NCBI GenBank assembly: GCA_903913915.1 | Contig: CAIWNE010000059.1 | Span: 1 to 64,000 of the forward strand | DNA length: 64,000 nucleotides | DNA from: an uncultured Opitutia bacterium | GTDB taxonomy: Bacteria > Verrucomicrobiota > Verrucomicrobiia > Opitutales > UBA953 | Direction of reading: 5' to 3' | Shown: positions 57,452-60,831 of the stretch, piece by piece | Layout: every line of letters begins with the position of its first letter | Numbering within the stretch: position 1 is the stretch's first letter | Translations under genes and position numbers: made by a program | The notes under the pieces: model-generated | Database searches by the model: none | The model's input: the letters and a program-made list of their open reading frames with translations, nothing else | What the model was told of the DNA's origin: nothing

Positions 57452-57482
57452 AAAAAAAAGGGGGACCCCTTCGGAGTCCCCC
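57452..57482 (-). terminator. Terminator of the TauD/Cys-tail unit
   Basis: A 7-bp stem (57460-57466 with 57476-57482) and an A run at 57452-57459, which is a T run on the minus strand. It ends the leftward transcript 29 bp after the stop of the Cys-tail gene and may also stop the converging nuclease transcript. Confidence 0.8.
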
Positions 57483-57510
57483 TGCGAACCAAACCAATTA
57501 GGCGGGCTGG

Positions 57511-58068
57511 TTAGTCGTTCGAACAGGCGTGCCAGCAGCGCCCGGAGCAATCATGCCAGCAATCGGTGCCCTCGGGACTGCTGAGGACCTCGCCGAAGGC
57601 CTCGTGGTAGAGCTTCTGCGTGCGACGGAAGGCGCCCTCGAGATCCTTGGCATCCTGCTCACCGCGCATCCCGAAGTAGGGATAGTGGTGGAAGTACCCG
57701 CCGAAGATCTTGTGGCTGTCCTGATGGTAGGCGCGGGTGTCCAGGATGTGGTAGTGCCAGATCAGGTCGATCTGCTTGGTCGGGACGATGCCCTTCCCGT
57801 GGCGCTTGCTGAGGGTGAGGAAGCGCTTGTACTCAAGCTCAGCCTCATCCGCCTGCGGCTTGGTCCAGCCCTGGCCCTCATCCTTGTCACCCAGCTTCAT
57901 CTTGACCATCTCCAGGTCGATCGCGGCGATGTCCGCCTCGACGCCCTTGGTGATGAGCCAGCCGATGCGCTCGGCGTTGATCGGCTCGGGGAAGACCAGA
58001 TGGTCGTTCCCGATGGCCGCGGTGGTGGCGGCCACGGAGGCCGCCTTGTTTTCGTTGATCTGCTTCAT
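57511..58068 (-). CDS. Glycine-rich-domain-like protein with a CxxxCxxxCxxxC tail (possible peptide precursor)
   Basis: 185 aa from the ATG at 58068. The body has QIDLIWHYHILDTRAYHQD followed by FGGYFHHYPYFGMRG, the WH-x-H-x-L-D and HH-x-P signature of the glycine-rich domain-containing protein (GRDP-like) family. The last 16 residues, CWHDCSGRCWHACSND, are four Cys units exactly four residues apart (Cys170, 174, 178, 182), with CWH twice. Families of this kind with Cys-rich tails occur as suspected modified peptides or metal-binding tails. It follows the TauD-like gene by 43 nt on the same strand, suggesting that the oxygenase acts on it. Confidence 0.6.
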   Translation of the reverse strand: MKQINENKAASVAATTAAIGNDHLVFPEPINAERIGWLITKGVEADIAAIDLEMVKMKLGDKDEGQGWTKPQADEAELEYKRFLTLSKRHGKGIVPTKQIDLIWHYHILDTRAYHQDSHKIFGGYFHHYPYFGMRGEQDAKDLEGAFRRTQKLYHEAFGEVLSSPEGTDCWHDCSGRCWHACSND

Positions 58069-58111
58069 GTTTATGTGTGTTTTTGGGTTTCCGTCTTGAG
58101 CCGACGGGGGC

Positions 58112-58756
58112 TTAACGACCGCCCTCGCGGTCGAAATTGTCCTTGGGGTGGCCGACCCAGTGGCGGATGAGCAGCCGGCCCTTGTCGCCGCCGATGGCCG
58201 TGCGGCCATGGAGCATGCGGGAGTTATCGATGAGGAGCACCTGCCCCGGCTCCAGGACGACCCTCTCGGTCTCGACCTGGTCCAGCGCCGCCACGAAGGC
58301 ATCAAGATGTTCGTCGGCTCCTTCGCGACGGAACCACGGGGTGAAGAAAATCCAGTCCTTCACGCCGAGGTCATTGCGCACCACGGGCCAGCGCTCTAGG
58401 TCACGCGGAAAGACCTGGTGGGAGCCCATGGTGACCTCAGCCAACGCTGCCCTGGTCGACGCCGGCAGGGTCCACAGGGCGAGACGGGCGTCCTTAAGCA
58501 GGCTGACCCCGCCTTCGGAACTCTGACTCACGCAGTGCCAACCGATCCACCGAGCCCGGGGATGGTCGGTGTGAAGCTGCATCTCAAGGTCAGTAGCCAA
58601 CGCGGCACGGGCGTTGGGGCGCGGCGCAATCAGCGTCTTCTGGATCACAGGGCCTAGGGCGGAGAGCGTGAACTCCGTGGCATCAGGCGAGGAGGACTCA
58701 AAGGTCGCCCAGCCGTCCCTGACCAGCTTACGGAGAATGTTCGTATGCGGCGTCAT
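58112..58756 (-). CDS. TauD/TfdA-like Fe(II)/2-oxoglutarate oxygenase
   Basis: 214 aa, shorter than typical TauD (~280). The iron triad is visible: His62 and Asp64 in LHTDHPRARWIGWHC, His183 in DNSRMLHGRTA; a distal Arg in RLLIRHW could bind 2-oxoglutarate. It should hydroxylate or otherwise oxidise a substrate in the cytoplasm. It is directly upstream of the Cys-tail protein gene, and a 2OG oxygenase beside a Cys-rich peptide is an unusual pairing. It could instead be a free metabolic enzyme. Confidence 0.8.
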   Translation of the reverse strand: MTPHTNILRKLVRDGWATFESSSPDATEFTLSALGPVIQKTLIAPRPNARAALATDLEMQLHTDHPRARWIGWHCVSQSSEGGVSLLKDARLALWTLPASTRAALAEVTMGSHQVFPRDLERWPVVRNDLGVKDWIFFTPWFRREGADEHLDAFVAALDQVETERVVLEPGQVLLIDNSRMLHGRTAIGGDKGRLLIRHWVGHPKDNFDREGGR

Positions 58757-58859: not shown

Positions 58860-58986
58860 GCGATGACTGTCGCATGAACCGAAATGCCCAACGTGGGCCC
58901 GAATAGGTCCGGAATATAACTTACCTAACCCTATTTACAACAGAGGTTTATGGAATATAATATTCCAGGCTTTATGCTCGTACCGC

Positions 58987-60831
58987 CTATTTTCCGATTT
59001 CCGAAGCCCGAGCGGCGCCTAGGCATATGCGCCTAAGCTCGGCATGCATGTTGAAGTAGATGCCGTAGTGCCGTTCGCCGACCTTCTGAAGAACCATGGC
59101 GAAGTTCAAGTTCTCCGCCGGAGGCTTGAGCTCCTTCGTGAAGGAAAGCCCGTAATCATCCGAGACAGTAAGATGATCTCCGAGACTTATCAGCGTAATC
59201 ACTTCGGGCAGAAGCCATACCGGAACCTCCGAATCAATCATCTCCTCACGGCTCTCCCGCCCAAACAACGTCTTGAGCGTAGATGAGTATTTCTGGAACA
59301 CTTCCTTAGCCTTAGACGAATCTCCCGCTAGCATACTGAACCACTGCAGACGGCCTTCGAAAAGGCTGACAATGGCAATGTCAGGGGCATTACCGCATTT
59401 CTCTGCCAAAGCTGCATAGTCTTCCACGGACTTGCTGATGGTCGCAAGGTTACGTCCGCTCGGCTTGACGAAACGTGGGTTGGTCAAAAAACCTGCAAGG
59501 TAACGATTTACAAGCAGGTTGACCGCCGGATCGGGATTTCCTGAACGACACGAGCTCAGCAACTCGTCAACCATGTCCGCCATCTTTGCCTGCTCCTGGA
59601 GCTTATCGTCGCGTCGCGAGTCAGACGGGACAAGGCAACGCCTGGAGAGGAGAAACGCCTTGGCGAGCTTCTCGGTGGTCCCCCACCCCGCAGAGCGCTT
59701 AGCCAAATAGTCTTCGATGGTGGCTGCATCCCTTCCAAGCAGCTCCCGGAACTCCGAATCATAATAGCCAGAAGCAATCGCCTCGTAGCGGGTGCGGGAG
59801 CAGTGCAGCCTGGCCTTCATTTCCCGCGTCGGCTTGGAATGTCCCAATCGGCTCAAAGCCTCGAAAACCAGAAGATCATTGGCACCCGGGGTCGTGCTGC
59901 TAAGCCGCGAAAGTGACTTCCAGAGGTCACTTCCGTGGGGGTGACTCTCATGGTCCTTAAGCATCCGAACACACTCGGCTGCGCTCTCCCGAACGAAAGC
60001 ATCTCCCAGCGTAACGGCTCGGCCCCGCAAGGCGGACAACAGGCGCTGCCAAGCATGATCCTCGACGCATTGCCTGGCAACGCGAACACGCTTCGGGTCC
60101 GCCTTGCTATCCATAGAAAGCTTAGCTCCTGCGCCTGCTGACGATGAGAACTTCCTTGGGGAGGGCATGTCCTCCTTCCCTTCTGCGATGGCTTCAAGGC
60201 ACTCGACCGCATAAGGCTGAGCCTCTCCAGCCATGCCAGCTTGGTAAACCGCGAAGGCCAGCGCCGGAATCAAGACCATCTTCGCAGCCATCTTCAACAC
60301 CTTGTGATGATCCTCATCCGGCATCTCACTATGAATGCGCAGACAGAGATGCGTATAAAGGGATAGCGTCTGCTGAACGCTCAAAGCACCAGGCCAACTG
60401 ACATTATCCTCCGGAAAAAAGTCCGGCAAGAGTTCGTCCAATCGCTCATCAACGGCCTTCTCAAAGCTTTCAAATTCGCCATACCTCAAGCTTACCCGAC
60501 CACCCTCGCCCGCATAGCTTCCAGCGAAGCGGAGGAAGTCGTCCTGAGACGAGAATTTAGCGAACTTCTTTGCGAAATCCTTAGCCACGGCGATGGCAGC
60601 CCTGACCGTGGACTTTGGGTCGGTGATCTTCCTGCGCCGCACCTTTTCCATTTTCTGATCCGGCGGCACATTTCGCAGCGATAGACCGTGCTTATGAAGG
60701 TAGGCATAAGCATCCCCAAGATCGTCTTGGCATTCGTAGGCCTTCTCCAGGTCAACTCGGACAACATCGAGTAGATGTGCGTAGATGAAGTCCGACCAGA
60801 ACTTGTTCTTTTCGCCGTCTGCGTCGTCCAT
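58987..60831 (-). CDS. Large helical protein of unknown function
   Basis: 614 aa, acidic at the N-terminus (MDDADGEKNKFWSDFIYAHL), with no signal peptide or membrane segment. The sequence is mainly helical, with Leu/Ala-rich stretches (KMAAKMVLIPALAFAVYQAG, AFLLSRRCLVPSDSRRDDK) and a Ser-rich linker (FSSSAGAGAKLSM). I see no enzyme motif and do not recognise a family. It is a single gene between the TauD unit and a small element gene. The upstream 58.86-58.99 kb region is AT-rich and without features. Confidence 0.55.
   Translation of the reverse strand: MDDADGEKNKFWSDFIYAHLLDVVRVDLEKAYECQDDLGDAYAYLHKHGLSLRNVPPDQKMEKVRRRKITDPKSTVRAAIAVAKDFAKKFAKFSSQDDFLRFAGSYAGEGGRVSLRYGEFESFEKAVDERLDELLPDFFPEDNVSWPGALSVQQTLSLYTHLCLRIHSEMPDEDHHKVLKMAAKMVLIPALAFAVYQAGMAGEAQPYAVECLEAIAEGKEDMPSPRKFSSSAGAGAKLSMDSKADPKRVRVARQCVEDHAWQRLLSALRGRAVTLGDAFVRESAAECVRMLKDHESHPHGSDLWKSLSRLSSTTPGANDLLVFEALSRLGHSKPTREMKARLHCSRTRYEAIASGYYDSEFRELLGRDAATIEDYLAKRSAGWGTTEKLAKAFLLSRRCLVPSDSRRDDKLQEQAKMADMVDELLSSCRSGNPDPAVNLLVNRYLAGFLTNPRFVKPSGRNLATISKSVEDYAALAEKCGNAPDIAIVSLFEGRLQWFSMLAGDSSKAKEVFQKYSSTLKTLFGRESREEMIDSEVPVWLLPEVITLISLGDHLTVSDDYGLSFTKELKPPAENLNFAMVLQKVGERHYGIYFNMHAELRRICLGAARASEIGK

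Follow-up and report, generated by a model that had tools for sequence, protein, structure and literature searches.

A compact TauD-type oxygenase and a GRDP-like protein with a conserved cysteine tail form an obligate gene pair and a candidate protein-modification module

Comparison of gene neighbourhoods shows that a compact TauD-type oxygenase and a GRDP-like protein ending in a short cysteine-periodic tail (the CWH tail) form an obligate, co-inherited pair. The pair was found in the window, by which we mean the whole stretch of DNA that was analysed (64,000 nucleotides from an uncultured Opitutia bacterium), and its carriers come from three or more bacterial phyla. The tail, an element of 14 residues with sharp boundaries, is under strong selection, and the protein that carries it is probably the target of the oxygenase. 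We lean slightly towards a reading in which the enzyme would oxidise the tail, so that the two genes would make up a RiPP-like module for protein modification. The tailed protein is a member of a large family that has hardly been studied and whose architecture is that of modified-peptide precursors.

Results

Anatomy of the gene pair

The features of the locus, all on the minus strand, are as follows.

57459..57483, minus strand: intrinsic terminator directly 3' of the GRDP gene (11-bp stem, 3-nt loop, T run)
57511..58068, minus strand: GRDP-like protein (P0001), 185 aa, consisting of a helical body, a variable linker and a Cys tail (PF07173)
57514..57561, minus strand: C-terminal tail CWHD-CSGR-CWHA-CSND, near-invariant as CWHDC..RCWHAC in 19/19; putative modified or metal-binding core
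57562..57588, minus strand: variable linker between body and core, residues 161-169, unconserved in 19 homologues and of low AF2 confidence
58112..58756, minus strand: compact TauD-type Fe(II)/2-oxoglutarate oxygenase (P0002), 214 aa (PF02668, E=1.3e-15); candidate tail-modifying enzyme
58913..58940, minus strand: promoter-like site 5' of the oxygenase gene, weak (9/12), a consensus match only

Both open reading frames, and the repetitive cysteine ending behind a GRDP-like domain, had been described in an earlier note made from the sequence alone and are confirmed here. The GRDP frame opens with an ATG at 58068 and its stop codon ends at 57511; the product matches PF07173 above the Pfam gathering score (E=2e-6), carries the DxxWHxHxxDT...HHxP motif of GRDP-like proteins and has CWHDCSGRCWHACSND as its final 16 residues (57514-57561). 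The oxygenase gene precedes it with a gap of 43 nt and, given this short gap, the promoter-like site and the strong terminator at the GRDP stop codon, the two genes have the anatomy of one transcription unit.

A 614-aa protein encoded at 58987-60831 (minus strand) has no Pfam match; its homologues, 22-27% identical, also lie beside the pair at each of the three Opitutae loci, where they are divergently transcribed relative to it. This neighbour was dropped as a third gene of the module since it is common to the Opitutae loci only. Positions 29479-63995 of the window form an integrase-led island with many defence-type genes, including those for a DrmD-like helicase, a type I restriction-modification system, AbiEi/AbiEii, an HNH endonuclease and a HipA-like kinase. 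Despite this defence-rich region PADLOC gave no match for either protein of the pair, and a known defence role was set aside.

The upstream gene encodes, as the note had proposed, a TauD-like oxygenase with an intact iron triad: PF02668 is matched in all 19 oxygenase homologues, and the triad (H62-T-D64...H183) together with R194 is invariant among them. With an HxD...H triad, a 2-oxoglutarate-binding Arg and a match to the TauD profile, P0002 is a member of the TauD/TfdA superfamily. The oxygenase domain of a natural fusion protein (L050, see below) matches the folds of BBOX1, CarC, TauD and clavaminate synthase with Z scores of about 18-20. The window enzyme is shorter than the TauD-type enzymes of the PDB (fold-search targets of 244-286 residues), and the spacing from the Asp to the distal His is about 30 residues less than in TauD.

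The oxygenase and the CWH tail occur together

A profile of GRDP relatives was scanned over 84,980 genomes and recovered 520 relatives, the best 80 of which were retained. The CWH tail is present in 18 of these best 80, and at all 18 of their loci a P0002-like oxygenase gene lies immediately upstream on the same strand, compared with none of the 62 loci encoding other tails (tblastn). Gaps between the two genes in the CWH loci range from -4 to 39 nt; at two loci (L048 and L049) the genes overlap in an ATGA, and in L050 the oxygenase and the GRDP protein are one continuous reading frame, that is, an in-frame fusion. A separate search yielded a further CWH protein, from a gammaproteobacterial genome (L118/L132), whose oxygenase gene is downstream. 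With the window included, all 20 CWH-tailed GRDP proteins thus have an oxygenase neighbour (18 upstream, at a distance of 43 nt or less or overlapping, one fused in frame and one downstream), the 20 loci representing fewer independent events because several are closely related or lie in doubtful MAG bins (L038, L045). The earlier note had asked whether such a protein is always found beside an oxygenase: the association holds throughout the CWH subgroup and fails in the wider GRDP family. Since it is missing from that wider family, the TauD oxygenase is one tailoring variant within it rather than its defining enzyme.

The oxygenase profile has exactly one match per genome in 17 pair-carrying genomes. 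Of 395 sampled Bacteroidota genomes, a single one has a member of this subfamily of oxygenases (E<=1e-25), and it is also the sole carrier of a CWH protein, the other 394 lacking the subfamily; the only other strong GRDP match in this sample (G638) has a different tail and comes from a genome without such an oxygenase. The distance matrices of the oxygenase and GRDP proteins correlate (Spearman 0.72), with none of 2000 permutations reaching as high a value, and on a tree of GRDP bodies the CWH/oxygenase label can be placed with one change, although a single clade is weakly supported (41/85). Carriers of the pair belong to the Verrucomicrobiota, Bacteroidota, Spirochaetota and Pseudomonadota, with Thermoflexus and Limnohabitans bins that are possibly misbinned.

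A conserved tail behind a variable linker

In a codon alignment of 19 members, residues C170, W171, H172, D173, C174, R177, C178 and C182 are unchanged in every sequence and W179, H180, A181 and S183 are nearly unchanging, while linker residues 161-169 vary freely. The cysteine periodicity noticed in the window is therefore kept across the CWH subgroup (19/19). The tail codons themselves differ among the homologues at synonymous sites and so, with its residues fixed and the adjoining linker variable, the CWH tail is not a product of chance. The ratio pN/pS is 0.086 for the tail (residues 170-183) and 0.271 for the body, figures that, as synonymous sites are saturated, serve for comparison only and give no absolute rate; the tail is the most constrained part of the GRDP protein. 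An AF2 model of the window protein (pLDDT 85) predicts a helical body with confidence and leaves the tail, which is probably flexible, disordered. The model of the L050 fusion contains two confident domains, with a tail pLDDT below 50 and a pTM of 0.59 that make docking of the tail unreadable. In the terms used for RiPPs, the protein has a 14-residue conserved core set apart from its body by a variable linker, and a dedicated enzyme linked to the precursor in all CWH loci, the action of that enzyme on the precursor being a candidate one.

The GRDP body has its own invariant residues

Across five bacterial and phage architectures, the body retains W68, Y80, P96, D101, W104, H105, H107, T111, Y114, D117, H127, H128 and P130. 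The invariant Asp/His set (D101, H105, H107, D117, H127 and H128) suggests a metal- or substrate-binding site and no passive leader, and the description of this body as leader-like in the earlier note is too simple; the body may itself be catalytic or metal-binding. Foldseek found no match to the body in the PDB at E<=0.001, VIA-align reached at most Z 5.0, to cyclin-like helices, which is uninformative for a helical model, and a profile made from the GRDP alignment matched no PDB sequence. Neither a signal peptide nor a TM segment is evident in the sequence or model of the window protein.

Tandem, split and phage-encoded relatives

At least two Cys residues are present in all 80 tails of the best 80 GRDP relatives, and Cys accounts for 8.8% of tail residues against 1.4% of body residues. 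Among the Burkholderiales, the Variovorax tail comprises about ten copies of the tandem unit AAWCSLEAGKPS, and AAFCGVATKP (Pseudoduganella) and AAWCAVEPSAK (Albitalea) are each repeated eleven times; Thiomargarita has DTATCTDKIYV six times, and Bacteroidota tails contain CKAPKCRTACKPMKCK or CHTCHNQCSHC. Tails of 6-11 tandem Cys units, with a multi-core appearance, occur in L085, L089, L091, L093, L072 and their relatives. At many Burkholderiales GRDP loci a large GGDEF/EAL protein is encoded nearby, often directly upstream.

The GRDP proteins of Gammaproteobacteria are often tail-less, with a small open reading frame directly upstream that ends in a Cys motif (for example CNGQCASGHCK) and with genes for a TonB-dependent receptor, TonB, an ABC transporter or a serine carboxypeptidase in the surroundings; these split loci are candidate metallophore-like RiPP clusters. 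In six of them (L133, L134, L135, L136, L138 and L139) the peptides end in CNGxCASGxC or ACMANCSGNCQS directly 5' of the tail-less GRDP gene, and the same loci carry the TonB-dependent receptor, TonB, ABC transporter or S10 carboxypeptidase genes. Peptides encoded in Halomonas and on a Pseudomonas savastanoi plasmid (L025 3719-3847; L027 3766-3900) have dissimilar N-terminal parts and a common ending, GGGHCQGGGxW, and precede genes for a GRDP protein and a membrane protein that is weakly MATE-like in Halomonas and has no Pfam match in P. savastanoi. On an Azospirillum ramasamyi plasmid (L024 4031-8423), a GRDP protein with a CGDTEARGCKSQNCP tail adjoins a SAM methyltransferase, another TauD-family oxygenase and a UvrA-like protein.

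Distant relatives from Verrucomicrobiota and cyanobacteria combine a GRDP domain, a membrane segment (some with a TIGR04222 domain) and Cys/Gly tails. A viral scan with the single window protein gave no match, and the family alignment then recovered giant-phage relatives: contigs (L141-L147, L031) encoding GRDP proteins with long Cys/Gly/His tails. In plants, AtGRDP2 has a C-terminal glycine-rich region with interspersed cysteines (PMC4299439). The resemblance to RiPP logic proposed from the window alone is borne out in this wider family, where both multi-core tails and the split arrangement of peptide and GRDP protein are seen.

Discussion

Proposed modification of the tail

If the oxygenase acts on the tail, the GRDP body would dock with it or activate it, as the natural fusion L050 suggests, and the enzyme would use Fe(II), O2 and 2-oxoglutarate to oxidise at least one side chain of CWHxC (the Cys, His, Trp or conserved Asp). 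The modified Cys/His site would probably bind metal or act in redox chemistry. The product may remain attached to the protein, as a protein-borne cofactor or metal site, and would not have to be released. No peptidase or transporter gene is conserved next to the pair, either in the window or at the homologous CWH loci (one M23 peptidase among 77 neighbours), and a released peptide is not indicated because a dedicated leader peptidase or exporter is missing from beside the window pair; a permanently modified whole protein is at least as likely, and a peptidase or exporter could be encoded elsewhere or be unneeded. Throughout the family the body would be the constant part, with Cys cores either fused to it or separately encoded, and the TauD enzyme would be a tailoring enzyme specific to the CWH core.

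Some observations speak against such a module. The invariant Asp/His set of the body suggests an activity of its own, and the GRDP proteins that have other Cys tails and lack the oxygenase imply that a tail as such does not need one. In a further reading, possible but in our view rather doubtful, the GRDP-like domain would itself be a metal-dependent maturase, or an obligatory maturation partner, of Cys core peptides, working in cis where the tail is fused, often as multiple repeats, and in trans where the peptide is encoded separately. It would then define a new RiPP class found in bacteria and giant phages, to which the Cys-containing, glycine-rich tails of the plant proteins might also belong, and the TauD oxygenase would add a second modification in the CWH branch.

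The main rival to oxidation of the tail is a tail that binds Zn, Cu(I) or Fe without being modified. In that case the GRDP protein would supply its partner oxygenase with iron, as a metallochaperone, or sense iron for it, and the oxygenase would act on some other substrate. The Cys4/His2 composition, the exact four-residue period and the invariance of both Cys and His are consistent with such a tail, as CxxxC plus His might do no more than bind Zn, Cu or Fe; other GRDP tails are likewise rich in Cys and His (for example CHTCHNQCSHC and CKAPKCRTACKPMKC), the body has its conserved Asp/His set and the partner enzyme requires iron. However, Trp171 and Trp179, Asp173 and Arg177, which a plain metal site does not need, are about as invariant as the Cys and His residues, and a metal tail would not require strict dependence on one oxygenase subfamily; other Cys-tailed GRDP proteins do without that enzyme. 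On balance we consider an unmodified metal-binding tail unlikely.

The fusion L050 and the co-inheritance of the two proteins would also fit a stable complex, with the GRDP protein as an indispensable subunit of a heteromeric small-molecule oxygenase and the tail as a docking or regulatory arm instead of a substrate; the enzyme, short beside the 244-286-residue PDB targets, might have an active site that only a partner completes. Set against this, the tail, predicted to be disordered, shows stronger conservation than the body, where the interface would lie, and no conserved metabolic genes were found adjoining the pair in the CWH loci, so that such an enzyme seems improbable. More improbable still is a pair that senses oxygen or iron, with hydroxylation of the tail serving as a signal, like the prolyl and asparaginyl hydroxylase switches, and not as a step in building a product. 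An obligate pair with no transporter or peptidase, and with no evident signal peptide or TM segment, would suit that role, but no regulatory gene is conserved next to the pair in the CWH loci (2-3 of 77 neighbour proteins are response regulators or have cNMP-binding domains) and the CWH tail resembles the core repeats of the wider family.

The GRDP-like domain, which is of unknown function and occurs in bacteria, giant phages and plants, would gain a testable role as a carrier or maturation factor of cysteine cores. The two-gene pair is the most compact entry point to this family, having a single oxygenase and one obvious candidate substrate. Modification of the tail would add a Cys/His/Trp chemistry by a TauD-type enzyme, and would turn the 520 GRDP relatives from one scan into hundreds of unannotated candidate precursors, including multi-core and split, metallophore-like ones.

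Comparison with known systems

In the open-licence literature, to which subscription journals and preprints are mostly external, we found no paper linking bacterial GRDP, DUF1399 or PF07173 proteins to modified peptides, Cys cores or oxygenases. The oxygenase resembles members of the TauD/TfdA superfamily (BBOX1, CarC, clavaminate synthase, AsnO) in its fold, at the Z scores given above, and in its intact Fe/2-oxoglutarate residues, and it differs from them in its shorter length and in always having a GRDP protein as its partner. Methanobactin operons (PMC3621798, PMC9601215), which combine a small Cys peptide with an exporter and a TonB-dependent receptor, are like the gammaproteobacterial split GRDP loci, with GRDP in place of MbnB/MbnC; the likeness is to these distant split relatives and not to the window pair.

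TIGR04222 ('near_uncomplex') membrane proteins with Cys tails are proposed MNIO substrates (PMC12452194). They share with the window protein a C-terminal low-complexity Cys tail, and in at least some members (P0003 and L014, whose TIGR04222 domains span residues 204-412 and 210-443) the N-terminal part is a GRDP-like domain homologous to the body of the window protein. In contrast to them, the window protein is soluble, is without a TIGR04222 membrane domain (no match in it or in 69 relatives) and is paired with a TauD-type enzyme. An MNIO (PF05114) was rejected as the modifying enzyme, none being found in the window genome (94% complete) or in 13 of the 16 other pair genomes; nor was one found at the GRDP locus in Verrucomicrobiota that have GRDP and membrane-tail proteins.

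Among RiPP families, proteusins have a long structured leader and a disordered core (PMC10858898), and the window protein likewise is folded in its N-terminal region and has a disordered core at its C terminus. It differs in having a GRDP fold instead of a nitrile-hydratase-like or Nif11-type leader, neither of whose profiles was matched, and in its enzymes. Borosins occur in fused (types I-III) and split (type IV) forms (PMC8429565), and in both families a domain and its C-terminal core are fused or separate depending on the taxon. The GRDP protein has no methyltransferase homology, GRDP-like being the only profile matched and an alpha-N-methyltransferase not among its matches, and its chemistry would concern Cys, His or Trp side chains; by analogy, the pattern of fused and split GRDP proteins nevertheless matches that of RiPP families such as the borosins.
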